This document shows, one piece after another, positions 16,935-64,000 of a DNA stretch of 64,000 bases. Position 1 is the stretch's first letter; the number at the start of each line of letters is the position of its first letter. The notes under the pieces were generated by a model. The model worked only from the letters and a program-made list of their open reading frames with translations. It made no database searches and was not told where the DNA came from. The position numbers were made by a program, and so were the translations under genes. Origin of the DNA: Dipteronia dyeriana (lineage: Eukaryota > Streptophyta > Magnoliopsida > Sapindales > Sapindaceae); assembly GCA_032871835.1 (NCBI GenBank), contig CM065295.1, positions 44,390,360-44,454,359 of the forward strand, read 5' to 3'.

Positions 16935-16939
16935 ACTAG

Positions 16940-18990: not shown

Positions 18991-19019
18991 TCATTGAATG
19001 GAGCAATATTTTAACATTC

Positions 19020-38526: not shown

Positions 38527-39185
38527 AAATATAGACAGAGATTTAAATCAATTATGCGCTTCTTGCTGTCTTCATCAATGGACCACTCTAACCTGGAAGC
38601 TAAGTGATCTAGCTCATATTTAAAAGCTTGTAACTGGTCAATCAGCTTATGAGCAATAGAAGCAGAGATAAATATTTTTTGGATTAAAGGTTGAATGTAA
38701 TAATTGTTTTGAGCATGATCAAGAGATTAAAGGAAACCATCATAAAATTTATTAACATTCAACAAACCGATGGATTTCTCATGGATATGTAGTTACGCCT
38801 AGGATGCTATTGTAAATAATTCATATAAGGTTCCAAAACCACCTGGCAAAGCTATAAATGCATCAACATGATGTAGCATTGTAGTCAGTCTTTCCTACAT
38901 ACCTAAAATAACTAGCTTTTCACCGTTTGTCTTTCCAATGATGTCTACTGTGGCCATAGGTTTTGGGACAATACCTAAAACTTAAGTACCTCAGTCTCGT
39001 GCAACTCATGAAATACACCCCACTAATCCCAAGTTACCTCCCCCATACACTAGGTGTGTTTTCCGTTCAACCAAAACCTTATCAAAATGAGTTGCAGCAT
39101 CAACAAACTCTCTGTATATATCCCATAATTAATGCCACCAAATACACAAATGTTTGTGAATCATTTAGCTGAAGGTGTTCTTTTG
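38527..39185 (-). pseudogene. LOG-like gene carried by E1 (cytokinin riboside 5'-monophosphate phosphoribohydrolase family)
   Basis: On minus, without introns: FTNICVFGGINYGIYTEFVD, AATHFDKVL, then the signature THLVYGGGNLGLVGCIS (39060-39010), VLGIVPKPMATVDIIGKTNG, VDAFIALPGGFGTLYELFT (PGGxGT at ~38850-38825), IHEKSIGLLNVNKFYDGFL and a C-terminal LIDQLQAFKYELDHLASRLE. GGGxxGLMG and PGGxGTxxE are the defining motifs of LOG enzymes, which release active cytokinin from its nucleotide. About 220 codons equals a whole LOG protein. At least six stops and loss of the ATG (a ~30-bp deletion relative to 59964) make it dead. It lies in the 3' region of E1 where retrotransposons have no gene of this kind. 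Confidence 0.85.
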
Positions 39186-39230
39186 AATGATTATGAGTGC
39201 TTTGAAGAAAAAGGGAAAACAAACGCTTGT

Positions 39231-39237
39231 ATTTATA
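39231..39237 (-). promoter_or_regulatory. TATA box upstream of the LOG-like gene in E1
   Basis: CTATAAATACAAGC on minus, followed by TTTTCTTCAAAGC. The same element is conserved at 60037-60043 in E2, ~75 bp before the LOG-like ATG there, so it is a plausible core promoter. Confidence 0.5.
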
Positions 39238-39344
39238 GATCCCAAAAAGGTAACACTATGATACACCTATATGTATAGGGTGGTGCATTTATCAATGATA
39301 TATTATATCCAAATGGTTCAAAAATAAAAAGTAAACAACAATAA

Positions 39345-39998
39345 TTGCAAAGGACATTAAATGCAAAAGGAAAAAAGATATTTATTGGTAATTGTGATTG
39401 TGGCTCACATCGTCCTCTTATTTTACATCTAGTAACGGCTTCAAACGCTCTTTATGGGTCAGGGATATGCTTCCCATCCAATTTCTTACAAATTAGCAAA
39501 CATGGCCTTTTAAAGTCAGATTCCCATGACTATATTGTGCATGTTCTTTTTGGAATTGTGGCGCCATAATTGGTCAATTGCCTTTTGCACATATCCACTA
39601 GGATAGGCATCAAGAGTCGTTAGGATATCCAATAACTCCCTAAGAAAACCATGCCTAATGAATAAAATTTTATCCTCCCAATTATCAGACACATTCCTAA
39701 AGAATGACAACGTGTGTTGCAAGTTGTACGTGTACATTTGTGACAAGTAATGCCTAACTTCTTAGCTCTTCGTTTCTTTGCAGGGTTACTTTTTCTAAAG
39801 CAAGGCATATAAGATATAAATGAGTCAAAAGACTCACTCGCTAGACACCTTAGCTTCGATCAACCAGTGAACATCAGCTTGAATGTTATACATCATCAGT
39901 AAGAGCAATCTTTTGAACCGTGCTCTGTAAATCTTTTTCAGAGCATTCTGAGGTAGAGATGGAAAATATTTTAACAGGTTCGGGAAAATTTCATCCAT
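39345..39998 (-). pseudogene. Second non-canonical ORF of E1, unidentified
   Basis: The minus ATG at 39998 opens MDEIFPNLLKYFPSLPQNAL then KKIYRARFKRLLLLMMYN and DVHWLIEAKV. After a frameshift come FRKSNPAKKRRAKKLGITCH with Cys spacing C-x2-C-x4-C-x3-C, then ILFIRHGFLRELLDILTTLD and YPSGYVQKAIDQLW. The homologue in E2 spans 60263-60806. A TATA-like TTATATAG lies at 40088-40095. I do not recognise the family. It may be a second captured host gene or an element-specific accessory protein with a zinc-binding cluster. Confidence 0.55.
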
Positions 39999-40209
39999 GC
40001 CTTGTTTGGGGGATCAGTTATTTTGAGAAATTGAGTTAAACGGACTTGAATTGTTACAGAGTACCATTATCCGCCACTCAACCGGGGTTATATAGTACAA
40101 CACACCAAGCAAAAATTGAACCTAGAAATTAATCCTGCAAAAATTCAAAACGTAAAAGTGAACAAAAATAATCGCAAACACAAATAAAGTCAAAAAGCAA
40201 GAGATTTGA

Positions 40210-41330
40210 TTACTCACTGTTGTAACAAGGGTCAGATAGGATGATAGAGTCTATTTGAAAATCTGTATTTTCTAAGAATGGTTTCACACGTTGTCCGTTT
40301 ACTTTAAACACATTACCATTCCTAGGATTCTCAATGTTGATGGCATCATATGGATACACGTGTTTCACAACAAATGGACCACTCCACTTTGATTTCAATT
40401 TGCCAGGAAATAAATGAAGTCGAGAATTATAAAGCAAAACCTTTAAACAAACTTCAAATGATCTTAAAATCCATTTGTCATGGAATGTTTTAGATTTTTC
40501 TTTAAGAATTTTTGCATTTTCATATGCATCATTTCTTAATTCATTAAGTTCATTTATTTGCAACTTGCGTAATTCACCAATATCATTTAGGTTAGAATTG
40601 AAAGCTTTAGTGGCCCAATATGCTTTATGCTCAAATTCAGCAGGTAAGTGGCAAGGTTTTCCATAAACTAAACGATAAGGAGACATACCCAAATATGTTT
40701 TGAATATAGTGTTGTAAGCCCAAAGTGCATCATTTAGTCTAAGACACCAATCTTTTCGATTACGGTTAACCATTTTTTACAAGATCAGTTTTATCTCCCT
40801 ATTTACTAACTCAACTTGACCACTTGTTTTAGGGTGGTATGGTGTGGTAATTTTGTGTGTAACTCCATATTTCTTTATTAAAGACTCAAAGGGTTTATTA
40901 CAAAAGTGTTTGCCTTCATCACTGATAATGGCTCGAGGGATTCCAAATCGACTTAAAAGATTTTCTTTTAAAAACTTAATCACTGTTTTATGATCATTAC
41001 TTCGATAAGGAATTGCTTCAACCCATTTTGACACATTATCAACGGCAACCAAAATGTACAAAAATTTAAATGATAGTCAAAATGGACCCATAAAATCAAT
41101 TCCCCAACAGTCAAACATTTCAATGACAAGAATGGAGTTTACAGGCATCATATTTCGTTTATAAATGGACCATAACTTTTGACAATTTTCACAGGTTATA
41201 CAAAATGCATGTGCGTCTTTAAACAAGTTGGGCCAGTAAAATCCACACTGTAAGATTTTTGCAGCTGTTTTCTTTGACGAAAAATGACCACCACATGCTT
41301 TAGAATGACAAAATTTAATGACGTTACTAA
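40210..41330 (-). pseudogene. E1 integrase
   Basis: Minus strand: a zinc-binding part around 41330-41190 (ACGGHFSSKKTAAKILQCGF, YWPNL, CITCENCQK), then GIDFMGPF (~41100), VAVDNVSKWVEAIPYRSND, IISDEGKHFCNKPFE (DEG in place of the usual DxG), TTPYHPKTSGQVELVNREIK (~40820), [20 protein letters not shown], and a C-terminal [20 protein letters not shown] ending at 40210. The core D,D,E order is visible, but a stop near 41080 and a frame break near 40775 disrupt it. Sequence style ([17 protein letters not shown]) is typical of Athila. Confidence 0.92.
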
Positions 41331-42268
41331 CCTCATTGCCTGGAATGCACTGTCGAACGATTTGATCAGGACAATACTTTAATAAGTATGGGTCATCCTA
41401 GTAAAAATGCTTTAACGCGGTAAAAAATTTCATTTTATCTTGTGTATTCCAATCAAGTGGCATCATTCTTGTTGCAAGATAACTAACAATGTCAGCTTAC
41501 TAAGGCATAGTTGCGACAGAGAATAAAAGATCACCAGGAAAAGAATTATTGATGGGTGCTTTATCAAATGACGACTCAACGGTGAGTTGTGATAAATCCG
41601 TGACAACATTTTCAGTACCCTTTTTGTCCTTGATTGTGAGATTGAATTCTTATAGCAAAAAAATCCAGCGAATCAATCTTGGCTTCACATCGTGTTTAGA
41701 CATTAAATACTTCACAACAATGTGCTCAGTAAAAACAATGGTTGAAGCGCTAATCAATTATGATCGAAATTTATCCAATGCGAATATCAACAACAAGTAA
41801 TTCTTTTTCAGTGGTGGTGTAATTCATTTGTGCACCATTCAAAGTTTTACTTGCGTAATAAATCACAAAAGGCTTACCTTTTCTTCTTTGTCCTAAGACA
41901 GCTTCAACAGTAAAATCACTTGCATAACACATCAACTCAAAATGCAAGGACCAATTAGGGGATTGCATGATAGGAGTAGATGTTAAAAGGTCAATTACCT
42001 TCTTAAAAGACTCTTGACCCTCTTTTGTCCATTCAAATTTTGTATATTTTAATAAGAGGTTATAAAGTGGTTTAGATATGACACTGAAATCTTTAATAAA
42101 CCTCTTATAAAATCATGCATGCCCAAAAAATGATCGCACATCTTTGACTGTTTACGGTGGTAATAACTTTGAAATGACTTCAATTTTTACCTTATCAACC
42201 TCGATTCTGTTGGATGACACAACATGACCCAAAATAATTTTAGACATGGTCATATAATGACACTTTTC
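41331..42268 (-). pseudogene. E1 RNase H and connection region
   Basis: The clearest part, 41968-41771, reads LHFELMCYASDFTVEAVLGQ, GKPFVIYYASKTLNGAQMNY and TTTEKELLVV, the gypsy RNase H start. Degraded matches run on both sides. RNase H removes the RNA strand during cDNA synthesis. Confidence 0.8.
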
Positions 42269-43189: not shown

Positions 43190-43905
43190 CTACAAACAAT
43201 CATCAAGATGTGAATGCATACTTGAATCAAGTGAATTGATCAAACAAACATCAAGTGAGTTAAAAGTATCATTTTGAACATGATCTGCAACAATGGTTTC
43301 AATAATGTCTACATCTTCATCTTCATTTTCATCATCAAATGGTTCCTTAGACATGTTGAAAACATTAAGCTTAATTTCCATATTTTCGAAAGACATGTTC
43401 ATTATTCCATTCTTGCAATTAATCAAGGCATTAGCAGTAGCTAAATATGGTTGGCCTAATATAACAGGAATTGATTTGTGCCTATTAACAACAGGTTGTG
43501 TTTCCAAGACAATAAAATATATTGGGTAAATAAATTTATCGCATTGTACTAACACATCTTTCACAATTTCTTTTTGGTATTTTAATTGACCTATAAGTAT
43601 GACAAAGTGTGGTTGAAGTCAGTTTTAACTCACCAAGTTTAAGTCGCTGATAAACTGAGTTTGGGAGCAAATTTACACTAACATCTAGGTCAAGTAAAGC
43701 ATGCTCAATTTTACAGTAACCAATTTTGCAGGAAATAGTGGGACAACCTGGATTTTTATATTTCAAATCATTTTTGTTGGAAAGAATGAAACTTACCTGT
43801 TCAGCCATAAAGGCTTTCTTTCTTACCTGATTCTTAATTTTTACAGTGCACAGATTCTTCAAAAATTTGGTATAGGAAGGTACCTGTTTGATCGCATCCA
43901 ATAGA
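43190..43905 (-). pseudogene. E1 protease region
   Basis: 43901-43536 has YTKFLKNLCTVKIKN, then CKIEHALLDLDVSVNLLPNS, which corresponds to the Athila protease motif ALLDLGASVNLLP, with GA replaced. The frame shifts and continues at 43564-43190 with PVILGQPYLATANALINCKN (the ILGRPFLATA block). The tail is acidic. Confidence 0.85.
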
Positions 43906-44410
43906 GTAACATTGATCTTTACCTATTTGAAAATTTCAAAAATCTCTAGGTAATACTTCGATTTCTGTGAATTTTTAAAAGACCAAGTAAATGGAAGTGT
44001 AGGCGGGGAATCAATTAATTCTTCATCAACAGTGGGTTCATCAACCCTTTCTTTACCCTTGGAAAATGTTTTATCATCATTTTTACCAGATTCAAGAATA
44101 GGTTTTTTGATGACCTTTCCACTACGAAGAGTAATAATTGATTTGACTTGGTCTGGGCGTTGGTTTTTGTCATAGGAATTTGACTGACTCCTGAGATTTG
44201 GTTGTGTTTGAGATGGAAACTTACCTTTTTAATGTGTGGTGACTGTAGAAGAATTTTTTACCAAAGTATCTTTAACATCTATCAATGTTTGTGCCGTTTG
44301 GGTGTTTATGGCTTCTTATTTCTCAATGAATGAGTGCAAAGTGTCTTAAAGGTTTTTCCTAGATGGTAGGACATAAAGTGCATTATCTTGAGGGTTTTGG
44401 AAATTCTGGT
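43906..44410 (-). pseudogene. E1 gag C-terminal part and linker, left of the copia insertion
   Basis: Decayed linker: ITLRSGKVIKKP block (~44140-44105), VDEPTVDEELIDSPPTLPFT (~44040) and a QTAQTLIDVKDTL-like stretch (~44290). ITLRSGK is a typical Athila linker motif. It joins across the copia insertion to 54903. Confidence 0.75.
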
Positions 44411-47015
44411 TGTTAGGTTTTAGTTTGTGTTGTTATTAATTCCATATCAAAATGATGTTTACCTTGTAATGACTTAGTTGTTTAGGTTCATAATGATTCA
44501 AGCTTTAAGGAAGAAGAAACAACAAGTCAAAGCAAGTTCTAAGTCTTCAAAGAAAAAGGATGCAATTTGGTTATACAAAGGTATACTAAGACCTTATCTT
44601 TCTCTTACGTGGCTTAGGCACACACATACATATCATACATTTGTGTCCCTGCATCATTGTGCACCTTTATAGGCACACATATACAATTCATTCATATGTG
44701 TCCCTGCATCGTTGTGCACAATGTATAACACATTCACACATTTAAAGATGAATGCTCATGCATTGGTATGAATATAACATGTTTTGGAATATGCATGATT
44801 GGAAACATTCTCTATGAAATTTGCATTCTAGAATAAATTGTGTTTGTGTGTGTATATGTTTGTATAACATGGATTTGAACTTGGATTTAGTCTTAAATCA
44901 TTTTTGATTGAGTTCCGGTCATTTCGGTTACTCATACTATTGATTTCAAGTTCAAAGTCAAAAGATACTACACTTTCAACTCATGTTTCATACATTGTCT
45001 TCGTCTTCATATATCGAGTCAAATTATTATTTTTTGGGTTAATTATATTATATTTCCATGTTCGTATGAGAGTTAAGGTTCATAATCCAAAAACGGATTT
45101 TAATTTTGAGTTCGGAGGCCAGAGAACGGTCGAAGAACGCGAAGGGAGCGCGAGTGATTGCACCATGGCCAATAGGCCATAAATGTGTGCAAGCCCAAGA
45201 TGGCGTGTGGCCATCTCGGCCGCACAACCTCTCTGCCCTGAGATGCCCATGCACCATCTCGGTGGAGCACTTCCAAGGGTGGGAAAATTGGTCTTTTCAT
45301 CTTTCATTCTTATCCCTCTCTTTATAATTCCTTTTCCTCTCACATTTCATTCTAAGAAGAAATTCAAATCAAGTGTGCAGAATTTTCTCTCTAAATTTTC
45401 TCACCTTCCAAACACCATAAACTTTTTCATTTGAACTTCGATTTAAGTGATTCGAAGTTGAGCGTGTTCATCTATTCATCCTCTATCTTTTCTCTGAAGG
45501 TTTGAGTTTATTTTGCTGCTGGTTTTTGTGTCTAGTCATACAAAAACTAGACTGCACCTAGATCAACTAAGGTATTGATTTTCTCTCTAAGTTTTCTTTT
45601 AAAAATTGATCAATTGCCTTGGGTTTTCTTCTTCTACATATATTTTTATATTGTGAGTGTTTTGATTTGTGTTTTGAACATTTTCAAAGCTAGATTGAAT
45701 TTCAATTGAAATCATACTTGTTGAGTTATGTTTTGATTTTGCCTATGTTATCACATGTTTGGGATTGTATTGTGCTAGCTTTGATTCTAGGACTATTTTA
45801 TGATCTTTGATTGAATGATTTTGAGATAAATAGTTCTTCACATGTATTAGGCTCTCTTGGCCGAAGTTCTCACATAATACATGTGTTTATGTTTTTTTGA
45901 GCTATTCATGTGATTTGTTGAATCTATGATTAGGAATATGCTCTAGAACTTATGCTTAGATCTATTTTACTTTGTCATATGATTTTAGCATGTTTTAGGT
46001 TTTTGTGATTTAAACTTGATCTTGTTATTTGTTGATAATATCTTTTGATTCAAGTTTAGATATATGCATGAATCTAGTTTGTGATTAATGTTGAACATAT
46101 TTTACATGATCTAGATTGACTACTCATGCATGATTAACTAGACTATATGTGATTTGTGCATTCATGCTCATGTCTAGTATTTTCCATAGGATGTGTTGAT
46201 CATAGCATTCTATGTTACGTGCTTGTTTGCGTTTTGCATTCATGATCACCTATATGCCTTGTGAGAAGAAAGTCTTGACAATAGGTGTGAGACCTATGGT
46301 GTTGAACAAGAAGTCTTGGCAAGAGGTGTGAAGCCTCGGATTGTCGAGCAAGGAAGTCTTGGCTAGAGGTGTGAAGCCTTGGATAGTCGAGCAAGAAGTC
46401 TTGTCTAGAGTTGGGAGAACTCGATTAGTTGAGCAAAGAAGTCTTGACTAGAGTCAGAAAGACTCGGATAGTTGAGCAAGAAGTCTTGCCTTGGGTTGTG
46501 AAGATCCAGATAAGGTGAGCAAGGAAGACTTGATAAGAGGTGTAAAGCCTCGGATTGTTGAGCATAGGGCGACAACTTCTATAGTAGGATATGAAGGTAG
46601 TTTCTAGGAGAAGAGGTCACTTGAGAGATTGTACTTGTCTTATCTACTAGTGGATTTTGTTTGCCGGTGGCTGCTAGCCTGTGGATGTTTCCTCTAGGAG
46701 GTTTACCACGTTATATCTTGTGTCAGCTTTTCTCTATCCCTATATCTTTGATATTAGTATTGTGGATAGAACTTTTTATGTATGTTGACTTCCTTTCTAT
46801 GAAATTGATTTTATATGTATTTCAATTGCTTGTTTGCATCACACTTTACTTGTGTTTTATATATTGATTAATTGTCTTTAATTAATATATATTGTGATAC
46901 AAGCAATCTAGAGGGAAAAACTTTTGTTTGTTTCTAAGAGTGTCGAAAAAGGTGTCTAACCTATTCACCCCCCATCTAGGTTAGCCTTGAGCATTTAACC
47001 GTGATTGTATTTTCA
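44411..47015 (+). repeat. Copia 5' LTR (2605 bp)
   Basis: TGTTAGGTTTTAG...GTATTTTCA. Its first 100 bp differ from the 3' LTR at about four positions. It contains a minisatellite (46255-46575). Short ORFs in it (for example 45048-45343 minus) are repeated in the other LTR and are not genes. Confidence 0.93.
46255..46575 (+). repeat. LTR minisatellite, ~40-45 bp x 7
   Basis: Units contain AAGTCTTGGCTAGAGGTGTG and AAGCCTTGGATAGTCGAGCA-like blocks. The same array is in the 3' LTR at 54150-54475. Confidence 0.88.
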
Positions 47016-47017
47016 AT

Positions 47018-47029
47018 TGGTATCAAAGC
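47018..47029 (+). other. Copia primer-binding site (tRNA-iMet)
   Basis: TGGTATCAAAGC, two bases after the LTR end; one mismatch to TGGTATCAGAGC. Confidence 0.85.
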
Positions 47030-47099
47030 AGGACACTAGATTGCACTTAGTGTGAATTCGGGGTGATACTTTCACGGTTTTTGCAAGGCGTCTGGAGTC

Positions 47100-49140
47100 A
47101 TGGGTTTACAAGATGATGTAATGGCGGAAGGAGCCTTAAATACTAGGCCACAATTACTTCATGGCACTAACTATGGGTATTGGAAGTTGAGGATGAAAGC
47201 CTACATCCGCTCTATTGATGAAAGGGCTTGGATGGTAGTGGAAAAAGGTTATAGTCCTCCTACCAAGGTTTTAGAGGATGGAACCATGGTACTCAAGCCA
47301 ATGAGTGAGTGGACAACGAATGAGTTTGAGGTTGCTAAATGGTACAATCGTGCTATGAATGCCATCTTTAGAGGAGTTGATGGGCATCAATTCTCCTACA
47401 TTCAAAATCTTGAATCCGTAAAAGAAGATTGGGATACTCTCCAAGTTACTAATGAAGGAACCTTAGCGGTGAAGAAATCGAGACTTCAAATGTTGGCATC
47501 ACAATTTGAGGGTTTAAGTCTGGGTGAGGAAGAAAAGTTTGAAGACTTCTAATTCCGACTTCTTAACATAGCTAACCAATGTCAAGCACTTGGAGTACCT
47601 ATCTCAAAAGAGCGTTTAAATTGGAAAATCCTTAGGTCTCTTCCTAAGAGATTCAAATCAAAGGTGACGGCCATTGAGGAAAGCAAGGATGTGGATAGTT
47701 TGCATATTGATGAGTTGCTTGGGTCTTTCCAAACTTATGAGATGTGATTGAAGCCAAAGATCAAGAGTAAGGGAATCGCTCTCAAAGCTATTGAGGAGGA
47801 GAGTGATGATGAAAATGAAGAAATGGCACTCTTGGTTAGAAGGTTCAAGAAGTTTCTAAAGAAGAATGTCAAGCTTAAAGGCAAGTCTTCTAAGGAAAAA
47901 GGAGTCAAGAGAACATCATCTCCAAGGATTGTGAAGAATAGTCAAACCATGAACAAGAAAGAGGTTCAATGCTAAAATTGTTAAGGTTTTGGTCACTTTG
48001 CTAGTGAGTGCACCAAGAAGCCATCTAAGAAAGACAAGAAAGGCAAAGTGTTGGCGGCTACTTAGAGTGATGATAATTCTAGTGATAATGAGAGCTCTAG
48101 TAGTGAGTCTTCAAGTGATGAAGAGATGGTGAGCAACTTTGTAGCTCTAACGGCTTCTTATTCTCCACTAGATGTTAGCAGTACAATATCTTTGAACAAG
48201 GACCTTGATGCAAATCATGATGGAAGCTCTAGTTCCATTCCTACTAATCTTGAGTTGTTGAAAATGATTAAAAAGCTTGAAGAAGCTAGAGACAATGCTC
48301 AAAGAGAAGTAGTTGAGAAGGATGATTTGATCAAGAAGCAACTAGATGAGTTTGTGGTTGTTACTCGTAGACTTCTTGGTGAAAAAGTTGATATTGTGAA
48401 TAAATTTAGAGAACTTGAAAAGATAAACCTCGGGAAGGATATTGTGATATCCTCTTTGAGGACGAGAGAACAAGAATTGATGGAAGAGATAGACACTGCT
48501 AAGGAGGCTATCAAGGACTTAGTGAATGATTCAGTTAGTGTGTCTAGTGTTAGGAATCTTGTTAACTCTTATAGTGGTAAAGACGACTTGGTAGTTGAAG
48601 ATGAGCTCTTGGAAGCACCATTTCCTACACACTTTGATGAATTCGTGAATGATAAGAAACCACAAAAGAAGAGAAGACCAAAAGCCAAGAAGAAGTTGGC
48701 GAACAATGTATCTTTGCAAACTCCTAGTGAAGCTAGTTCAACTCCAAAAGATACAATCTCATCTTTTATTCCAATTTGCCATTATTGCAACACAATAGGT
48801 CACATTAAGCCTAGGTGTTATAAATATATTGAAAAATGCAAATTAGGAAATGAATCTAGGGATAACGAGATTAAGCTTCAACTTGAACATGCTAAGGCCT
48901 TGAAAGTTGAGAAAATGATAATATTGCTAAGCATTAGAAAAGATTTTGGAGTAGAAAGAATTCTAATATTGTTCAACTTGACAAAGCTTGTGTTAAAAAT
49001 ATTAAGGAAGAGTGTGTTAATGATATTCTTGTTAATCAAGTCATTGAAGGACTTTACTCTAGATTTAACATTGTTGTCAAGGATGATATTGGAAATGTTT
49101 GTGTAGGTACACCCAAGAACTGGTTGTTCAAGGGTGAGTG
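47100..49140 (+). pseudogene. Copia SIRE-like gag with two zinc knuckles
   Basis: ATG 47100 opens MGLQDDVMAEGALNTRPQLL, then the UBN2/gag domain (GTNYGYWKLRMKAYIRSIDE, WTTNEFEVAKWYNRAMNAIF, LAVKKSRLQMLASQFEGL). The same frame continues through nonsense codons at 47550, 47745, 47973, 47982 and 48063. A first knuckle NC.GFGHFASEC (~47980) with its first Cys before a stop, a Ser/Asp-rich part, a coiled-coil-like 48230-48540, a Lys-rich KKPQKKRRPKAKKK and a second knuckle CHYCNTIGHIKPRC (48777-48818) follow. A frameshift near 48930 precedes its fading end. Gag would form the particle and bind RNA. Confidence 0.88.
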
Positions 49141-50836
49141 CTCTTATCACTAAAATAAGAAGCACATGTGAGATAGCTTTGAGGCTATATATCAATTGTG
49201 TTGAGAATTCTTGCTTGCTAGCTTTGAATACTCCATGTATTGATATGAACTTGGTTATCTCACATCATGTTTGTTATGATGGTCAAAATTTGTTGATTAA
49301 CTTTGAAGAATTTCTTTTGTTATATGTGTTGATTGAGTTGAGATATTATGCTTTTTACACTTTTATTGTGAAACATCGTCAACTTGGTACCATGAGGACA
49401 TTCAAGGCAAGAGTGCTCATAAAAAGGGCAGAAGTATGATATTTGGTGAATATAATGTGCAAAAAGGTATCTCTATACTCTATTGCATGTTCTCTTAGAT
49501 ATTCATCTTTTGACTTAATTTTTGACATACATCTCATAGCCTGTCATATTAGAGAATTTTGTATAGCATACATATGGTTCTCATTGACATTTGCTATTTT
49601 AGGATCTGATAGTGATATTGTTGACATTGATCTTAACTTTGATGATTGTTTGTGTATAGTATATTGAGTGGCATTACCTTTGAAAATATGAGCTTCATAT
49701 TCTTTGAAAACTACTCATTAGAGAAGTAATGATCTTGAATAAGTCTCTACTTATTGTTTTTAGATCATGTGCTTATGAGCCATAAAATCTTGGTTTTCTA
49801 AAATTGCACCTTGCTTCTCTTATATGTTTTGCTAATAGATTGAGTTTACTAATATGTAAACATTGGATACACCTTGAAGTTTTTGTGCTTAAGTACATTT
49901 AAAATGACTTATGGTTAGTATCTATTATACTTTGGCAATTATATAGAACTCAACGAGCACCTTCATGGAAAGGGCTACACACATTGGTTGTGAAAGCTAC
50001 CCAATGTTGGAAAGAGCTACACCATTGTGATGAGTGAAAGCCATCATGAAGTGAATTTTTGTTTATGTAAAAAAAATGGAAAAATCAAAGAAGTGTTGAA
50101 ATGAAATCAATAAAAAAAAATCTCTGATTCAAAGCCTAAAAAGAAAATGAGGAAGGCTTAAAAATGAGTTTAGTTGGAAATCAAATGAGCTCGGGTTGAA
50201 AAACAGAAATGGGATGATGAGCCACATGCACACACATGCTCATATGTTGAAATCTATTCTCTTAATAGCAAAAATTTCGGATGATAATCGGTTTGACTTT
50301 TTATGGAAAAAGCTTAAGATGAATAGTTGTTGGAAATTGTTTGCATGTTGATTATCAAACTACTTCTTGATATATATTTGAAGAATATCTCTCTCACACA
50401 CACACTTTGTTTATGAGTATAATGATATCTTTGCAATTGTTGAAGAATTATGAGAGAACTTGAAAAATCTTTGTGTATCTCTCTTAGCTTATGAAGCTTA
50501 TTTTGTTGATACTTCTTCAAATTGCTTGAATGTGTGATTGTGTGAATATCTTTGTGAAATCTATGCTATCATTGATTTTAGTTATAGCATTTATCAAGGG
50601 GGAGCATTGTATGCTAGACATTGTTCTCTTTTATGATATGTTCACATGCTTCATTTTGTTACATGTTGGCATATTTTGACTTAAGGATACTTGTAAGATA
50701 TTACTCACTATCTTTGTCTTGCAAGATGATTCATTCTTAAGTCATATGTCATTTTTTTATATATTTGTGACCAATAAGCTTGTTTTGTCTTTCACTCACT
50801 TTTGTATGTTTATAGCATCTTATTTCACAAGAACAA
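49141..50836. other. Copia internal region where pol should be: no pol recognised
   Basis: AT-rich DNA with only short ORFs and no integrase, RT or RNase H motif on either strand. A small repeat of AAAGGGCTACAC / GAAAGCTACCC type is at 49970-50035. A full SIRE pol needs ~4 kb, so a large deletion or replacement is implied. Confidence 0.65.
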
Positions 50837-52328: not shown

Positions 52329-52339
52329 AAGAGGGAGAT
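52329..52339 (+). other. Copia polypurine tract
   Basis: AAGAGGGAGAT directly before the 3' LTR. Confidence 0.8.
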
Positions 52340-54902: not shown

Positions 54903-55986
54903 CTGGTGTGTTTGTGGATGTGGTGGACCTAGTGGTTGTGAAGACTGAGCTTGATTATTATTTCTCCAACTATTGTTTGGGTGATTTCTTCAACCAGGAT
55001 TGTAGGTTTGTGAGTATGGGTTGTTGAAAGTGTGCAAAGCATTGGCTTGCTCATGAATGCAATCTTTTAAGGCTGGTAAACTTGGGCAATCATGAGTGAT
55101 ATGATCATCAGAATCACATACATGGCTTGCAGTTTCTTGTACATATTTTACATGTTCACTCTTTTTAATTTCTAAAGCTTCAACTTTCCTAGCTAGGGAT
55201 TCAAATCTAGCTTGAAGGTCATGGTCTTCCCTAAGATTGTAAATGCCTTCACTAGATAGAGATGGTTATGGTTTGCTCATGGACTCATAAGAACCAATTG
55301 TGTTCTAATTTTGAGCATTTTCAGTAATGTGGTCAAGGTAGTCAAGTGCTTCTTCAAAAATTTTATCCCTGAACTCCCAATTACACATCATCTCAATGAC
55401 TTGTATACTTTGGGGTGTGAGTCCCTCGTAGAAATATGACACTATTCTCCATGTTTCAAAACCGTGATATGGATAGACATTTAACAACTCTTTGAACCTA
55501 TCCAAACATTGGTAAAGTGTTTCCCAAGGTTTTTGGGTAAATGAAGTGATTTGCCTCTTAAGATAGTTTGTTTTATGAGATGGGAAAAATTTTCTTTAAG
55601 AATTGTTGTTGCATATTATTCCAAGTTCGGATTGATCCTGACCTAAGGTTTTGTAACCAGGTTTTAGGTTTATCTTTTAAGGACAAAGGGAAAAACTTAA
55701 GTCTGATCATATCCATGCTAACATTTTGGTCAGTGCAAGTGTTACAGACTTCATCAAACTCCCTAATATGAAAATATGGGTTTTCAGATTCAAGACCGTG
55801 AAAATTAGGTAAAAGTTGAATGATTCCCAGTTTAAAATTAAAGTGTGCTGCATTTGGTGGAAAAGCTATACATGAAGGTGCTCCAGTGCGTGTAGGGTTC
55901 ATGTAGTCTCTAAGAGTTCTAGTTGGATTTGGGTTAATATGTTGGTCATGGTCAATATAAGAGGGATGATTGCTGTGTTGAGACAT
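54903..55986 (-). pseudogene. E1 gag, right of the copia insertion
   Basis: Minus ATG at 55986 (MSQHSNHPSYIDHD). The Athila gag domain follows: NFKLGIIQLLPNFHGLESEN, FHIREFDEVCNTCTDQNVSM, RLKFFPLSLKDKPKTWLQNL, WNNMQQQFLKKIFP; then after a frame break MDRFKELLNVYPYHGFETWR and WEFRDKIFEEALDYLDHITE. A knuckle-like CDSDDHITHDCPSL lies at ~55100. The frame runs into the CTGGT copia insertion and resumes at 44410. Confidence 0.9.
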
Positions 55987-56319
55987 ATTGTCAAGGTTGT
56001 CTGAAAGGTTCTCGGCTTGGTTTCCTGATGGATGTCTAAGTGGGATTTAAGTCATGTTGTTGGTAAATGTGGGTGATTGTGATCTCCTAATTAACTTGCC
56101 GCTATATGTTCGAGATCAACGTCTCATGCAAGTTTAATGAGGGCTCATGGAGATAAAATGCACAAAAATAATAAAATAAAATAAAAACTGATGAAAATAA
56201 CTAAGATGCAAAATTCTAAAGGTGTGAATGCAAATATACACAAGTGTTGGGGTAAAAGTGCAAATACCTATAAATCTATGGGCAAAAATGCAAATACAAA
56301 AATTAGAAGGACTAAAACT
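55987..56319. other. E1 leader lacking its primer site
   Basis: It aligns with 61859-62215 of E2 up to AGAAGGACTAAAA, then jumps directly to the LTR end at 56320. The ~195 bp holding the primer site and proximal leader (62218-62417 in E2) are absent. Confidence 0.7.
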
Positions 56320-57626
56320 TGACACTTTCTAACGAAGTGTTCCTACTTTTAAGTATAAGAGTGTCAAGGTAATAATTTAACCGATAAGATCGAGTCGAAC
56401 CACAGGGAGGTTGTTCACTTGTCTTCATAAAATTAATTGTCTAGGTAATTTCTTAAGCTTGTTATAAAAAGTGTAAATCAATTGAAATTAAAACTAGGAC
56501 TAAGAGATCAACTGTTGGTATTTCAAATAAGATCAAATTATTAATATTTAGTCTAAATTTATGGGAGAGATTTTCCACTCCACTGACCACTCTACTGATA
56601 GATATGGTGTAAAGTACTCACTGTGCCAAACATCATCTATCTATCTACGATGAGTCAAGACTCTATAAAAATCAGAATGGAAAAAAACAAGAAAAGAAAA
56701 TTACCAAAATTCAATCATATTTTCCACACTAACAGTATCACCTTTGACCTTAGCTATATTGAATTAGTTGGACATAGTGAATTTTTCTAGAAAATATCTA
56801 TTTTATTTCAACTGAGAATTTGAGAACAATAGAGAGAGAATTTTCTAAATCTAAGATCATAAATGGATTCAGGACGCTCAACTTAGGGGGGCGAGGATCT
56901 CTATTTAAACAAAATTCGAATAAAAATTGACCATCGGATGAATTTAAAATGGAGCGTCCAGATCACGCCATGTAGCGTGCTCTGATTGGGCCGACCAAAG
57001 TAAAGTCAACAGTCTTCTAGAATGTGATTCCTTACAATCGCATATACAATGTACTCGCAATTCGGTCGAATATAAATATATCACTTTAACAGTCAACAGA
57101 CAAAGTCAACAGTCTTCTGGTATTAGCTGATCTATTGTAAGGAATGTGAGCTTGCGTGCGTAGACCAATCAAATGCTACTACGTCATCAAATCAATGTGG
57201 GCTCACCATAGTATCATACACCATTTCACACTGGATCTGAATTTCTTTTGTGTAATCGGTGACTGTTTTGAATCCCCTTTTCATCTATCCAAGGTTTTTG
57301 AGCCTTCTTAGTCCGTTATTGATGTCGATTCTGTTGTCCGGGACTCCGAACATGGTCAAAATTATAAAAATACCCTTCATGACCTTTATAGAGCTTTTGA
57401 ACCTTCTAAACTTGAAAATGATGTCTGTTTTGCCATTTGACTTCTCTATATTTTTGAACTGACCATATTACCCCTGAAATTAAAAGAAAAATACAATAAT
57501 TACTACACAACACATTTCTTTAAGTAAGGGAACGAAATATGTCTAAATTGGGGAATAAATAATATTGGAAGTGTAAAATGATAATATTATCCGTTAATAG
57601 ACATATACTTTTTAGTGTTAATCACA
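56320..57626 (-). repeat. Athila-like LTR shared by E1 (5') and E2 (3')
   Basis: 1307 bp. On its left is E1 leader and gag. On its right is a polypurine tract (57627-57638) and the 3' region of E2. One LTR thus serves two same-oriented elements. Confidence 0.85.
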
Positions 57627-58303
57627 CCCCCAACTAGCTTATTTCTAGTCTCTAACGTTTAAAGAGAAAAACAGTAAAAACTCAAATTCAAATCTCCAAA
57701 CTACCAAATAGACAAACTCTTCCATACCTCTTTTCTCACCTTCCGTCAATCGGTCATCAATCGAGATATCAATCAAACCTTCTTGTGCTCAATGAAGATC
57801 AACACAATAACTATGAGATTCAATTGAAATCAAACAAGATTTTCATTCTAAAATCTCATCAGATCTTCTTCCTTAGGCAACAATTTTATTCTATCTTTTT
57901 TTTTTCTTTTTATAATAATATAACAAAATTGGAAACAAACATTCCATCTTTAATCCATGCAGCAAGCTATAGGCCAATGGCTCCCAAACCAGTTATCTTT
58001 AGGGCATTAAGTGTTGAAACAATCCTACAGGCTTAATGATTCGGATTGCAGATGTTTATTAGTGTAATTCCCTTAAGCTTTCTCTTTAACCTGTGTAGTG
58101 AGATTTGGGTCAATGGCTTCCAAACCAGTTAATCTTAGGGCATTAGGTGTTGAAGCACCCCTCGATCTTAATTGTTCTAGTTAAAGAGGCTATGAAATAG
58201 CACTTTATTCTTGTCAAGACTCCATCGTTTTACGTGAACACTCTTTACTTGCTGAGGCATGAGGCTCGGCTACTAAGTTAGAGTTTTGGTCAGAACACAC
58301 AAA

Positions 58304-58358
<55 letters not shown>

Positions 58359-58797
58359 TTACTATTATTACTATTATTACTACTATTATTATTTTAATAT
58401 GTTTTATTTTAAGAAAATCACTGTCTTCGGCTGTTACCCTTGAATGAAGCTTCAGAACTAAATATCTCAAAATCTCAACTTACTACACATAATCACGTGT
58501 CAATGTGTGTGTGTGTCCGAAATAGTTGGGACAATGTCTCATTACTCGGCATTCTTTTAGTAAAAAAAATGGTTAGAAGTTAGCTTGTTTTTTTTTAAGA
58601 AAAAATTACTAAATCCACATTAATGTCAATTATCCCCTCCTTCTAACCAGAATGAGACATTGTCCTAAATGTCTTTTAGAAAGAGGTAAGGTTGAGAAGA
58701 TATCAACTGAACAACTTGAAAGACGACAAAATCATGCAAAAATAACAAAAGTAATACAAAATAAAGAAAAATAAAATGCATAAAAACCATTGGATAA
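57627..58797. repeat. E2 3' untranslated region
   Basis: Homologous to 37270-38526, including the GTGTAG(T/C)GAG repeat (57955-58165). An (ATT)n microsatellite spans 58304-58395. No ORF. Confidence 0.6.
58304..58395. repeat. (ATT)n microsatellite
   Basis: About 30 trinucleotides with a few ACT interruptions. The matching end of the inverted copy begins at ~63978. Confidence 0.95.
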
Positions 58798-59138
58798 TTA
58801 CAAACAGAGATTCAAATCAATTCTGCGCTTCTTGATGTCTTCAGCAATGAACCACTCTAACCTAGAGGCTGAGGGATCTAGCTCTATTAAAAAGCTTGTA
58901 ACTGGTCAATCAATTCAAGAGCATTAGAAGTAAAGATAAAGATTTTTCAGATTGAGGGTGAAATGTAATAATTGTTCTGAGCATGATCAAGAAATGAAAG
59001 AAAACTATCATAAAACTTATTAACATTCAACATACCGATGGATTTCTCATGGATGTGTAGTTACGCCCAGGATGCCATTGTAAAGATTTCTTCTAAGGTT
59101 TCAAAACCACCTGGCAAAGCTATAAATGCATCAGCATA
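58798..59138 (-). pseudogene. LOG-like gene, 3' half (tandem partial copy in E2)
   Basis: Minus: YADAFIALPGGFETLEEIFT, MASWA, HIHEKSIGMLNVNKFYDSF, LSFLDHAQNNYYISPSI. It starts abruptly at 59138, where the upstream sequence is 3'-UTR-like (ACCAGAATGACATTGTTCCC), so it arose by a ~515-bp tandem duplication of the gene end plus 3' flank. The copy is PGGFETLEE, with Gly changed to Glu inside the PGGxGT motif. Confidence 0.8.
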
Positions 59139-59304
59139 ATGTATCCCCTCCCCCCAACCAGAATGACATTGTTCCCAATGTCTTTTAGAAAGAGGAGGTT
59201 GAGAAGATATCACCTGAACAACTTGAAAGATGATAAAATCCCGCAAAAACAACAAAATTAATACAAAATACGGGAAAATAAAATGCATAAAAACCATTGG
59301 ATAG

Positions 59305-59964
59305 TTACAAACAGAGATTCAAATCAATTATGCACTTCTTGTTGTCTTCATCAATGAACCACTCTAACCTGGAGGCTAATGGATCTAGCTCATATTTAAA
59401 AGCTGGTAACTGGTCAATCAGCTCATGAGCATTAGAAGCAAAGATAAATATTTTTCGGATTGAGGGTGGAATGTAATAATTGTTCTAAGCATGATCAAGA
59501 AATGAAAGAAAACCATTATAAAATTTATTAACAACCAACAAACCGATGAGTTTCTAATGGATGTGTAGTTGCACCTAGGATGCCATTGTAAAGATTTCTT
59601 CTAAGGCTCCAAAACCACCTGGCAAAGCTATAAATGCATCAGCATTATGTAGCATTGCATTCAGTCTTTCCTCCATACATGAAACAACTAGCTCTTCACC
59701 GTTTGTTTTTCCGATGATTTCCATTGCATCATAGGTTTTGGGAAAATACCTAATACTTGACTACCTCCATCTCGTGAAGCTCGTGAAGCTCGTGAAACAC
59801 ACCCTATTAACCCAAGTTACCTCCCCCATACACTAGTGTATTTTCCGTTCAGCCAAAACCTTACTAAGATGAGTTGCATCATTAACAAACTCTCTGTATT
59901 TCCCATAATTAATGCCACCAAGCATACAAATATTTGTGAATCATTTAGCTGAAGGAGACACCAT
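59305..59964 (-). pseudogene. LOG-like gene, full-length copy in E2
   Basis: From ATG 59964 (MVSPSAK) to a TAA at 59305 is 660 bp, ~219 codons, the normal size of plant LOG proteins, with no intron. Readable: FTNICMLGGINYGKYREFVN, GKTNGEELVVSCMEERLNAM, NADAFIALPGGFGALEEIFT (59635-59600), LIDQLPAFKYELDPLASRLE, WFIDEDNKKCIIDLNLCL. The GGG motif region (~59850-59820) is present at DNA level (TATGGGGGAGGTAACTTGGG) but out of frame. Several stops. The best-preserved copy at its start and end. Confidence 0.87.
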
Positions 59965-60036
59965 TAATGCACTCTCAGAATTTTTCATTTGAATGATTAT
60001 AAGTGCTTTGAAGAAAAAGGGAAAACAAACGCTTGT

Positions 60037-60043: not shown

Positions 60044-60262
60044 GACCCCCAAAAGGTAACACTATGATACACCAATATGTACAGGGCAGTGCATTTGTCA
60101 ATGATATATTATATCCAATGGTTCAAAAATAAAAAGTAAACAAAAATAATTACAAAGGACATTAAATGCAAAAAGGGAAAATATATTAAAAATGAAAGGA
60201 TATTTATTGGTAGTTGTGATTGTGGCTCACATCTTCCTCTGGTTTTACGTCCAGTAACGGCT

Positions 60263-60806
60263 TCAACGCCCTCTATGGGTCTGGGATATGCTTCCCATCA
60301 ATTTTTTTATAAATGGGCAAACAGGGTCTTTTAAAGTCAGATTCTCAATACTATATTGTGCATGTTCTTTTTGGAATTGTGGACATAATTTGTCAATTGC
60401 CCTTTGCACATATCCACTAGGATGGGCATCAAGAGTCATTAAGATATTATCCAATAACTCCCTATGCAAACCATGCCTAATGAATAAAATCAGACAGCAT
60501 TCCCAAAGAACGACAACGTGTGTTGCAAGTTGTACATGCACATTTGTGACAAGTAACACCTAACTTCTTAGCTCTTCGTTTCTTTACAAGGTTACTTCTT
60601 CAAAAACCAGGCATATAAGATATAAATGAGTCAAAATACTCACTCGCTAGACGTACCTTAGATTCGATCAACCAGTGAACATCAATAGGAATGTTGTACA
60701 TCATCAATAAGTGTAATCTTTTGGACCGTGCTCTGTAAATTTTTCTCAAAGCATTCTGAGGTAGAGATGGAAAATATTTTCACAGGTTCGTGAAAATTTC
60801 ATCCAT
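60263..60806 (-). pseudogene. Second accessory ORF in E2, unidentified
   Basis: ATG 60806 opens MDEIFTNL, then a stop, KYFPSLPQNALRKIYRARSK, IPIDVHWLIESKVRLASEYF, DSFISYMPGF, KKRRAKKLGVTCHKCACTTC, and after frameshifts ILFIRHGLHRELLDNILMTL, AHPSGYVQRAIDKLCPQFQK, IENLTLKDPVCPFIKKL. It is homologous to 39345-39998. Conservation of the same reading-frame content in two elements argues it was once coding. Family not recognised. Confidence 0.55.
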
Positions 60807-60829
60807 GCCTTGTTTGAGGGTTCTTACCT

Positions 60830-61858
60830 GTTCAGCCACAAAGACTTTCTTTCTTACCTGGTGCTTCATTTGCACAGTGCACAGATCCTTCAAAAATTTG
60901 GCACAGGAAGGTACCTGTTTGATCGTGTCCAATAGAGGAATATTGATCTTTACCTGTTTGAAAATTTAAAAAATCTCTAGGGAATGCTTCAATTTTTCTG
61001 TGAATTTGTAAAAGCTTGAGGAAATGAAAATGTAGGTAAGGAATCAATTATTTCTTCATTCATTTTTACCATATTCATGAATAGGTTTTCCGACGACCTT
61101 TCCCTAAGATTGTAAATGCCTCCACTAGATGGAGATGGTTGTGGTTTGCTCATGGACTCATAGGAACCAATGGTGTCCCAATTTGGAGCATTTTCAGCAA
61201 TGTGGTCAAGGTAGTCAAGTGCTTCTTCATGATTTTTGTCCATGAACTCCCCATTACACATCATCTCAATGACTTCTCTACTTTAAGGTGTGTGTCCCTC
61301 GTATAAATAAGACACTATTCTCCATGTTTCAAAACTATGATGTGGACAGACATTTAACAACTCTTTGAACCTATCTCAACATTGGTAAAGTGTTTCCTTA
61401 GGTTTTTGGGTAAATGAAGTGATTTGCCTCTTAAGAGAGTCTGTTCTATGAGGTGGAAAAATGTTCTTTAAGAACTGTTGTTGCATATCATTCCAATTTC
61501 GGATTGATCCTGACCTAAGGTTTTGTAACCAAGTTTTAGCTTTATCTTTTAAGGAAAAAGGGAAAAACTTACGCCTGGTTATATCCATGCAAACATTTTG
61601 GTTAGTGCAAGTGTTACAGACTTTCTCAAACTCCCTAAGATGCAAATATAGGTTTTCAAATTCAAGACCGTGAAAATTGGATAAAAGTTTAATGATTCCC
61701 AATTTAAAATTAAAGTTTGCTGTATTTGGTGGGAAACCTATGCATGAAGGTGCTCTAGTACGTGTGGGGTTCTTGTAGTTTGTAAAAGTTCTAGGTGGAT
61801 TTTGGTTAATGTGTTGGTCAAGGTCACCATAAGGGGGATGATTGCTGCGTTAAGACAT
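60830..61858 (-). pseudogene. E2 gag plus protease-region remnant
   Basis: Minus CAT at 61856-61858 gives the start. Readable: NFKLGIIKLLSNFHGLEFEN, HLREFEKVCNTCTNQNVCMD, FFPFSLKDKAKTWLQNLRSG, WNDMQQQFLKNIFPPHRTDS, WEALDYLDHIAENAPN-like text, then SGGIYNLRERSSENLF at the deletion joint, and a PR-leader remnant 61047-60832. More intact than E1 gag over 61702-61376. Stops are few, so gag decay is mild. Confidence 0.85.
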
Positions 61859-62217
61859 GTTGTCAAGGTTGTCTAAAAGGTTCTTAACTTGGTTTCCTGA
61901 TGGATGTCTAAGGGGATTTCAACCATGTTGTTATTGAATGTGGGTGATTGTGATCTCCTAATTAAAATGTCGCTAGATGTTCGAGACCAACGTCTCATGC
62001 AAGTTTAATGAGGGTTCATGGAGGTGAAATACACAAAAATGAAGAAAATAACAATAAAAGTGATGAAAATAACAAAAAAAGTGATGAAAATAATTAATTT
62101 GCTAAATTCTAAGGGCGTAAATACAAATATACACAAGTGTTTAGGTGAAAGTGTAAATACCTATAAATCTAGAGGCTAGAATGCAAATACATAAAATGGA
62201 AGGACTAAAATGCAAGA

Positions 62218-62394
62218 ATATGATTACTAATTACAAGTGATTTTTTTTTAAGTGGACAAAGTTTATGATTTGTTGAGATGAGTGATGCAAAACTGAACAC
62301 AAATTGAGAAAAAGGAAGATTAGAAAAAAATAATAACAAAACTAAAAGAAAATTAAAAAGAAATTACCTTTACAAAGAAAAAGCGGATTTACCT
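62218..62394 (-). other. E2 leader
   Basis: Non-coding leader between primer site and gag. Homologous, inverted, to 35795-35960. Confidence 0.65.
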
Positions 62395-62411
62395 CCTCGG
62401 CAACGGTGCCA
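62395..62411 (-). other. E2 primer-binding site (tRNA-Asp type)
   Basis: TGGCACCGTTGCCGAGG on minus; the typical Athila primer site is TGGCGCCGTTGCCGGGG. It lies 6 bp inside the LTR end. Confidence 0.8.
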
Positions 62412-62417
62412 AAAACT

Positions 62418-62937
62418 TGACACATCCTAAAGAAGTGTTCCTACTCCCGAGTATAAAAGTGCCAAAGTAATAATTTAACTGGTAAGACCGGGTCGAACCA
62501 CATGAAGGTTGTTCACTTGTCTTAGTATAATTAATTGTCTAGGTTAATTCCTAAGCTTGTTATAAAAAGTGTAAATCAATTAAAATTAAAACTAGGGCTA
62601 AGAGATCCACAATTAGTATTTCAAATAAGATCCCATTATCAATATTTAGTCCAAATTTGTTGGAGGGATTTCCACTCCACTGACCACTCTACTGATAGAT
62701 ATGGTGTAAAGGACCTACTGTGCCAAACAACATCTGTCTGTCCATAGTGAGTCAAGACTCCATAAAAATCAGAGGGGAAAAAGCAAAAAAATAATTTTAC
62801 CAAAATTGGAACATATTTTCCACACCAATAATATCACATTTGACCCTAGCTATATTGAATTAGCTGGACATAGTGAATTTTTCTAGAAAATAGCTATTTT
62901 ATTTAAACAGAGAACCTGAGAACAATAGAGAGAGATT
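62418..62937 (-). repeat. E2 5' LTR, truncated
   Basis: 520 bp of LTR U5/R side homologous to 56320-56845. It stops at a T-rich run (62931-62948), where + oriented 3'-region sequence begins. Confidence 0.8.
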
Positions 62938-64000
62938 TTTTTTTTTCAAAGAACTCGTAATGATTCAAAATAAAATTTTAGAGAGTTCATTAATGGCATC
63001 ACCTTCAGTTAAACAATTCACAAACATTTGTGTGTTTGGTGACATTAATTATGGGAAATACATAGAGTTGAGTGATGCTGCAACTCATTTTGGTAAGGTT
63101 TTGGCACGAGACGGAGGTAGTCAAGTTCTGGGTATTGTCCCAAAACCTATGGCCACAGCGGACATCATTAGAAAGACAAACGGTGAAGAGCTAGTTGTTT
63201 TAGGTATGTAGGAAAGACTGACTGCAATACTACATTATGCTGATGCATTTATAGCTTTGCTAGGTGGTTTTGAAACCTTAGAAGAAATCTTTACAATGGC
63301 ATCCTGGGCGTAACTACACATCCATGAGAAATCCATCGGTATGTTGAATGTTAATAAGTTTTATGATAGTTTTCTTTCATTTCTTGATCATGCTCAGAAC
63401 AATTATTACATTTCACCCTCAATCTGAAAAATCTTTATCTTTACTTCTAATGCTCTTGAATTGATTGACCAGTTACAAGCTTTTTAATAGAGCTAGATCC
63501 CTCAGCCTCTAGGTTAGAGTGGTTCATTGCTGAAGACATCAAGAAGCGCAGAATTGATTTGAATCTCTGTTTGTAATTATCCAATGGTTTTTATGCATTT
63601 TATTTTTCTTTATTTTGTATTACTTTTGTTATTTTTGCATGATTTTGTCGTCTTTCAAGTTGTTCAGTTGATATCTTCTCAACCTTACCTCTTTCTAAAA
63701 GACATTTAGGACAATGTCTCATTCTGGTTGGAAGGAGGGGATAATTGACATTAATGTGGATTTAGTAATTTTTTCTTAAAAAAAAACAAGCTAACTTCTA
63801 ACCATTTTTTTTACTAAAAGAATGTCGAGTAATGAGACATTGTCCCAACTATTTCGGACACACACACACATTGACACGTGATTATGTGTAGTAAGTTGAG
63901 ATTTTGAGATATTTAGTTCTGAAGCTTCATTCAAGGGTAACAGCCGAAGACAGTGATTTTCTTTAAATAAAAAATATTAAAATAATAATAGTAGTAATAA
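62938..64000 (+). mobile_element. + oriented Athila-like 3' region (E3 right part), continues past the window
   Basis: Contains a LOG-like gene and then the 3'-UTR in + orientation, opposite to E2. From 63232 on it is ~99% identical by eye to the reverse complement of 59138-58270. It may be the outer half of the + element whose 5' LTR and leader are at 34479-35965. Confidence 0.65.
62993..63576 (+). pseudogene. LOG-like gene, + strand copy with in-frame deletion
   Basis: ATG 62993 opens MASPSVKQFTNICVFGDINY, GKYIELSDAATHFGKVLA, then jumps to RDGGSQVLGIVPKPMATADI: about 69 bp including GGGNLGLMG are missing. It continues IRKTNGEELVVLGM, stop (63209), ERLTAILHYADAFIALLGGF (Pro of PGG changed to Leu), TLEEIFTMASWA, stop, IHEKSIGMLNVNKFYDSFLS, and ends near a TAA at 63574. 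Both nucleotide-binding signature motifs are damaged, so it cannot be active. The N-terminus is the cleanest of the family. Confidence 0.85.

Follow-up and report, generated by a model that had tools for sequence, protein, structure and literature searches.

Plant Ty3/gypsy retrotransposons with extra genes have been described in several forms. The YgdH domain, which is found in LOG (cytokinin-activating) proteins, was reported in Gypsy consensus sequences of Citrus sinensis and C. clementina, and in Populus trichocarpa when that study's five-consensus filter is not applied, with Steinbauerova 2011 cited, according to the parts of that paper used here (PMC9289625). According to the same parts, the cellular enzyme domain AlkB has become fixed in an orchid lineage of Gypsy elements (PMC9289625). 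Elements of the Athila lineage carry extra open reading frames (ORFs) downstream of integrase, which are env-like, as has been speculated, or of the ORF-1 type in the sections consulted (PMC6317226, PMC1142308), and the function of such env-position ORFs in plant Gypsy elements has been questioned (PMC6317226). Here we analysed 64,000 nucleotides of the Dipteronia dyeriana genome (GCA_032871835.1, contig CM065295.1, positions 44,390,360 to 44,454,359 of the forward strand), referred to as the window, in which four LOG-like segments (E1 to E4) each closely precede a long terminal repeat (LTR), all belonging to a single Ty3/gypsy family that is likely of Athila type. We consider it reasonably probable that these segments are last-gene remnants of a likely Athila-lineage family, in which a 3′ pair of genes, one NABP-like (resembling the Viral_NABP family) and one LOG-like, was likely acquired once and is predicted to have eased the life of the element in its host.

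The homology to LOG, proposed in the original prediction from motifs, was borne out. The X-masked reading of the E1 segment matched the Arabidopsis structures 2a33 (At2g37210; E 1.8e-41) and 1ydh (E 1.6e-38), which we take to be LOG3 and LOG8, respectively. Motif search recovered the quoted motifs where they were expected: GGGNLGLVG at 39018-39044(-), PGGFGT of ALPGGFGTLYE at 38829-38846(-), and PGGFG of ALPGGFGALEE at 59608-59622(-). E1 has both LOG signature motifs, GGGxxGLMG with one change and PGGxGTxxE, while E2 reads PGGFGALEE and both E3 and E4 have altered motifs. Database relatives of the window LOG carry PF03641, and intact relatives are present in databases. All four window copies contain in-frame stops and a frameshift, so that of the three or more full or near-full copies and one partial copy originally proposed, four segments stand but none is intact, and E3 is internally deleted; the span of about 219 codons in E2, taken as the size of a LOG protein, is actually a broken frame. 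The proposed position between integrase and the 3′ LTR was seen in E1. It is unreadable from E2 alone because most of the E2 pol is deleted, and E3 is only a fragment joined to an LTR.

From ORFs, Pfam scans and comparisons of repeats and relatives, the gene order of E1 on the minus strand was determined as gag, protease, reverse transcriptase, RNase H, integrase, (NABP), (LOG), polypurine tract and LTR. Features of E1 are as follows (database proteins are given by P numbers).

56320..58628, minus strand, LTR (TGACA...TGTCA), placed as the 5′ LTR of E1 and the 3′ LTR of E2
54990..56046, minus strand, E1 gag, cut off from its own pol by the 44410-54902 insertion
43190..44228, minus strand, E1 gag/protease region, matching Citrus sinensis P0144
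42269..42877, minus strand, E1 reverse transcriptase piece
41771..42112, minus strand, E1 RNase H
40210..41397, minus strand, E1 integrase, split into frames (H2C2 41077-41397, rve core 40777-41076)
39427..39998, minus strand, E1 NABP/CRP-like gene, broken (CRP, cysteine-rich protein)
38532..39178, minus strand, E1 LOG-like pseudogene, intronless, with several stops and a frameshift
38363..38374, minus strand, E1 polypurine tract, abutting the LTR
35968..38359, minus strand, E1 3′ LTR, starting TGGACA at 38359, its far end truncated and without TGTCA

No Pfam match was found for the gag/protease region 43190..44228 in the pieces scanned. The end of the integrase (40210-40776) was also without a Pfam match, but it is similar to Citrus pol proteins. 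Besides GGGNLGLVG and PGGFGTLYE, the E1 LOG carries the tail KKRIIDLNLCL, after which its own stop codon is gone. The remaining copies are arranged as follows.

62412..62940, minus strand, E2 remnant of the 5′ LTR and of the spacer between LTR and primer-binding site
62395..62411, minus strand, E2 primer-binding site, 6 nt past the LTR end TGTCA
61100..62210, minus strand, E2 gag
60823..61059, minus strand, E2 gag/protease piece, with most of pol deleted at the joint 60823/61059
60293..60806, minus strand, E2 NABP/CRP-like gene, less damaged than that of E1 (two stops, one frame change)
59308..59967, minus strand, E2 LOG-like pseudogene (PGGFGALEE, tail KKCIIDLNLCL)
58801..59143, minus strand, E4 partial LOG copy, 5′-truncated, beside the shared LTR
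58633..58644, minus strand, polypurine tract before the shared LTR
62993..63573, plus strand, E3 LOG-like pseudogene with an internal deletion
63730..63741, plus strand, E3 polypurine tract

The joint between NABP and LOG in E2 is the same as in E1. E4 sits between the E2 LOG and the polypurine tract with the shared LTR, and the LTR of E3 begins with TGACA at 63746 and extends past the window end.

The same joint was found in other plants. In Citrus P0087, residues 4-56, 55-91 and 96-318 match NABP, the NABP end with the spacer, and LOG, in the order of the window. P0087 also led to another accessory gene, which encodes about 182 aa and lies between integrase and LOG, since the leader that precedes its LOG part has matches in the window ahead of the LOG copies of E1 and E2 alike. 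A search with this leader gave 64 candidates, of which 37 proteins were kept; compared with the window, NABP and LOG were found together in 25, NABP and pol in 9, and all three in 4 (P0126, P0151, P0152 and P0154, all from Citrus x changshan-huyou). These gene models extend across transposons, so that little weight can be put on their exon borders, but the parts are shown to be neighbours. In Dipteronia P0006 the LOG match runs up to residue 156 and is followed by the LTR of the window family (residues 146-170), and Xanthoceras P0001 fuses LOG with the gag/protease region. The LOG closest to the window copy is also from Dipteronia, with 74% identity over 174 columns. With LOG and integrase queries, no related loci were found in viral contigs, and the plasmid collection gave no match. 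We rejected independent insertions of host LOG genes, given the same joints and order elsewhere (Citrus, Dipteronia). For annotation, this means that "LOG" models in Citrus, Dipteronia and partly Xanthoceras are likely transposon genes.

In trees, the element-type LOGs formed a single clade, separate from those conventional plant LOGs that were sampled, a comparison that had been suggested with the original prediction. The LOG rows were the best 120 of 7938 matches and may not cover every group of host LOGs. In a tree of the window copy, a bacterial outgroup, Arabidopsis chains and 48 database rows picked and labelled by hand (38 element-type, 10 conventional), 39 element-type LOGs lay on one side of a branch of length 0.67 (97/100) versus 12 conventional LOGs. 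For most non-Sapindales rows the label "element-type" is inferred, helped for Populus by the published report (PMC9289625, in part). A tree of 105 rows, comprising the window, 102 of the 120 best LOG matches (chosen mainly by length) and 2 from the leader search, grouped the window copy with Dipteronia (100/98) and then with Citrus (99/86), with the bootstrap not settled. Thus the proposal of one ancestral capture followed by spread with the element is supported as likely, given the same joints, the relatives in Citrus and Dipteronia and the single clade. Identity between E1 and E2 was also alike, 86.2-92.5%, for LTR, LOG, 3′ flank, NABP, spacer and gag, which fits the joint arrival of LTR, LOG, NABP and gag and likewise supports a single acquisition.

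A further feature of element-type LOGs is their C-terminus. LxLxL was the exact C-terminus in 57 of 75 rows of a large subclade (56 of 74 if the window row, cut by hand at this point, is left out) and in 0 of 30 rows outside it, and basic residues precede it in 55 of the 57 tailed rows. The 18 subclade rows that lack the tail include several truncated models and some rows with a single change; LxLxL is missing from the Xanthoceras and P0005 groups. The tail of the window copies reads DLNLCL. We take LxLxL to be an EAR-like corepressor-binding motif. All 20 conventional LOGs read LPGGYGTLEE and none has the tail, and in the 87 rows that belong to neither Citrus, Dipteronia nor the conventional LOGs, the tail occurs in 54 and LPGGxGTLEE in at least 71. 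Many of these 87 rows have the full length of 212-217 aa and show few gaps relative to one another, and they represent clusters of up to 81 members.

Relatives of the whole NABP-like gene are mostly 182-185 aa long. At E<=0.001, 557 of 648 candidates were retained; among the best 120 of these 557, they came from Xanthoceras, Acer yangbiense, Populus, Rhamnella, Orobanche and metagenome contigs, the latter presumably being plant DNA. The 101 members that we aligned were picked from these best 120, and, having been chosen as best matches, show 69% mean column identity. PF05515 (Viral_NABP) was matched by 81 and PF01623 (Carla_C4) by 79 of the 101 at E<=1e-3, and no other Pfam family was matched at this threshold. 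At E<=0.01, SHQ1 appeared in 3 and AAA_18 in 1 of 31 members. Neither viral family was found in 7 reversed or shuffled controls, although two reversed controls weakly matched another, different family. P0146 scored above the curated cut-offs of both PF01623 (27.9 vs 20.9 bits) and PF05515 (23.1 vs 23 bits). The broken copies of the window were linked to these relatives by tblastn only. In the protein, a cysteine cluster comes after a basic stretch, and two structure models reached pLDDT values of 62 and 72. No sequence relatives were found in the PDB, where two chains came up at E 0.6, and 0 of 4 members matched NCBIfam.

The placement of the family in the Athila lineage, already suggested in the original prediction, is likely on sequence grounds, because of the tRNA-Asp-type primer-binding site and the lack of space for a second RNase H. 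Pfam scans gave the gypsy domain order of reverse transcriptase, RNase H and integrase, with integrase last. The primer-binding site of E2, 62395-62411(-), lies 6 nt after TGTCA and has two mismatches to what we take to be the tRNA-Asp-type string. Between the RNase H frame (from 41771) and the integrase frame (to 41397) there are only 373 nt, presumably too short for an additional RNase H (aRH) domain. According to the parts of these papers used here, aRH marks the Tat lineage (PMC6317226), and Diaspora, which belongs to the Athila clade (PMC6317226), has like the Calypso group a tRNA-Asp primer site 5 bp past the LTR (PMC1142308). The Athila ORF-1 domain PF03078 was absent from the Pfam matches of scanned pieces, the scan having covered part of the pieces; it occurs in 16% of Athila elements and is not defining (PMC6317226, in part).

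Compared with the described systems, the YgdH Gypsy elements share with the window family a LOG-type domain inside Ty3/gypsy, and the statement in the original prediction that a LOG gene in such an element was undescribed therefore does not stand, because this domain is already published for Citrus and Populus Gypsy elements (PMC9289625, in part). For those elements, the main-text parts of that paper used here give no lineage, gene order, virus-like gene, tail, active-site change or Sapindaceae. Like the window family, Athila elements with extra 3′ ORFs have a tRNA-Asp-type primer-binding site near the LTR (PMC6317226, PMC1142308), no additional RNase H, and extra genes downstream of integrase (PMC6317226); the window family has NABP-like and LOG genes instead of the env-like or ORF-1 frames given in the consulted parts. 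The Athila survey in PMC6317226, as described there, counted only extra ORFs of at least 250 codons and would miss both NABP and LOG because both are shorter. The orchid AlkB elements resemble the window family in that a cellular enzyme domain became fixed, but they differ in enzyme and host, and no NABP or LOG is described for them in those parts (PMC9289625). In open-licence literature, searched partly through listings, we found no report of the NABP-LOG pair or of a NABP-like gene in retrotransposons, and by title or abstract no paper besides PMC9289625 on LOG in elements. New beyond the original prediction are the NABP/CRP-like second gene, the LxLxL tail and the altered active-site motif of Citrus. 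Two adjacent env-position ORFs with many relatives can now be named, one as a hormone-activating enzyme by family and one by the profile of a viral silencing suppressor.

In the explanation that we favour, LOG would have entered the element by capture of a spliced host transcript at the time of reverse transcription. Such a capture is likely because LOG is intronless here, and host LOG genes have introns. It would afterwards have been inherited along with the element, in a lineage that predates the split of Sapindaceae and Rutaceae. As long as they were intact, NABP and LOG may have been translated from transcripts that were spliced or initiated downstream. The NABP-like protein is predicted to bind nucleic acid and, by analogy with some viral look-alikes, would likely weaken silencing or change transcription. 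Active cytokinin set free by LOG would sustain cell division, and transposition in the meristem or in precursors of the germ line would benefit from this. One ancient acquisition is likely, with old spread, and the copies are dead here. This offers a testable route by which a retrotransposon may act on its host cell.

Several observations weigh against this explanation. P0100, which groups with the non-Sapindales rows, is annotated as LOG3-like. For the 14 Citrus rows, 11 motif patterns were obtained, one being a gap, and PGGxGT occurs in 0 of the 10 readable patterns, which mostly read LPGDLATLEA. Since no readable motif in Citrus is PGGxGT, the function retained there is unlikely to be cytokinin activation, and the Citrus element LOGs (among database proteins P0076, P0087 and P0121-P0156, mostly from Citrus) are a candidate for a change of function; as judged from these motifs, the case argues that the enzyme step may not be needed in every lineage. 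NABP members P0131 and P0142 are without a Pfam match, and P0129 is below the cut-off. The best viral fold match of the NABP-like protein, to a silencing suppressor of Grapevine Kizil Sapak virus, had an E of 0.51 (model with pLDDT 72). In a codon-position test, an excess of third-position changes between the window LOG copies was absent in 6 of 6 pairs, and the E2-E4 pair (p 0.038) had the fewest changes at the third position. Selection on the window copies, which we had considered, was dropped because this test shows no constraint. Finally, the stops are shared in conflicting ways, which speaks for parallel changes, exchange between copies, or copying of dead genes. GAG to TAG and CAA to TAA are common to E1 and E3; E4 also has the latter, but the site of the former is absent from it. 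Two different stops, TGG to TAG and a TGA close to the N-terminus, occur in both E1 and E2 but not in E3; E4 lacks the TGG to TAG stop, and its first part, with the N-terminal TGA site, is missing. The conflict would be accounted for if methylated cytosines had changed in parallel, or if copies had exchanged sequence. LOG was likely dead before some of the window copies parted, and if it was copied when already dead, it was not needed in cis.

Such decay could be read to mean that LOG, and NABP with it, were passengers, which were acquired but never useful to the element and simply rode along and decayed. The four broken window copies without codon constraint, the stops common to several of them and the changed Citrus motif all agree with this. 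Passengers would hardly stay open for so long, however: LPGGxGTLEE is kept in at least 71 of the 87 other LOG rows listed, many rows are full-length at 212-217 aa with clusters of up to 81 members, and the 101 NABP relatives, picked as best matches, show 69% mean column identity. We therefore regard the passenger reading as unlikely. Far less probable, and largely refuted, is that local pseudogenes or retrocopies of host LOG came to lie near LTRs by chance and were multiplied by segmental duplication. E3 and E4 do belong to a 99.35% identical inverted duplicate, and E1 and E2 stand side by side and apparently share an LTR, but the gene order and joint recur in Citrus, LOG is fused to the LTR in Dipteronia, and the element-type clade is separate from the sampled conventional LOGs.

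Two further alternatives concern the gene products. The likeness of the NABP gene to viral families could be convergence, an ordinary retrotransposon protein having gained a basic stretch and a cysteine cluster without common descent. The aligned stretches are short (e.g. 27 to 87 residues) and basic, and the fold search was not significant; yet two separate viral families matched the 101-member set and no other did at E<=1e-3, the controls gave 0 of 7, and the viral fold search, although it stayed below significance, was headed by a silencing suppressor of a plant virus. Convergence is possible but less likely than not. The LOG-type protein, on the other hand, might act through its basic LxLxL tail by silencing host defence genes, with its enzyme activity dispensable as in Citrus. 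The distribution of the tail (57 of 75 subclade rows vs 0 of 30 outside, 55 of 57 with preceding basic residues) speaks for such a role, as does its retention in 7 of 14 Citrus rows while no readable pattern there keeps PGGxGT. The Xanthoceras and P0005 groups without LxLxL, and the LPGGxGTLEE kept in at least 71 of the 87 rows outside Citrus, Dipteronia and conventional LOGs, make this an improbable account.

The NABP-like gene is a second type of accessory gene common to Gypsy elements and flexiviruses, beside AlkB, which orchid Gypsy elements and flexiviruses have in common (PMC9289625, in the parts used here). The sharing of both suggests repeated gene exchange between Gypsy elements and flexiviruses. 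The cysteine-rich/NABP proteins of flexiviruses (mandarivirus, carlavirus) resemble the element protein in the PF01623/PF05515 profile and in the basic stretch with a cysteine cluster (PMC12172455, in part), while the element protein differs in its length of about 182 aa and in its own predicted N- and C-terminal helical parts. As stated in the parts of PMC12172455 used here, several of the viral proteins suppress silencing, and one was described as a transcription factor inducing overgrowth. Taken further, the two genes might form a virus-style kit for handling the host, in which a zinc-finger suppressor or transcription factor sharing descent with flexivirus proteins is combined with a corepressor-tailed cytokinin enzyme, and retrotransposons may even be the source of the viral cysteine-rich proteins. 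We hold this extended version to be doubtful. Gene exchange between retrotransposons and flexiviruses as such is possible.

E3 and E4 are not two independent insertions, because both are parts of an inverted duplicate of 770 nt, 58374-59143 versus 63231-64000, with 99.35% identity. This duplicate is far younger than the surrounding elements, and reflects a recent rearrangement, gene conversion or an assembly effect. At the other end of E1, an additional LTR of this family (34478-35943), oppositely oriented, stands head to head with the E1 LTR and is followed by a primer-site-like stretch. The insertion that separates the E1 gag from its pol, 44410-54902, is bounded by direct repeats of 2.6 kb (44410-47015 and 52339-54902, 92.5% identical), between which a copia-type gag (47067-47552) matched PF14223 below the cut-off; it resembles a non-autonomous element that contains gag only and has very large terminal repeats.

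Other repeats were observed elsewhere in the window. Another Gypsy integrase-like stretch lies at 27500-28500 on the plus strand and is 29-35% identical to Citrus pol proteins. Positions 12995-20300 are dense in diverged direct and inverted repeats of about 68-82% identity, and 1900-2900 weakly matches (24-29%) a Citrus BED-type domain protein, possibly as the remnant of a hAT-type transposase.

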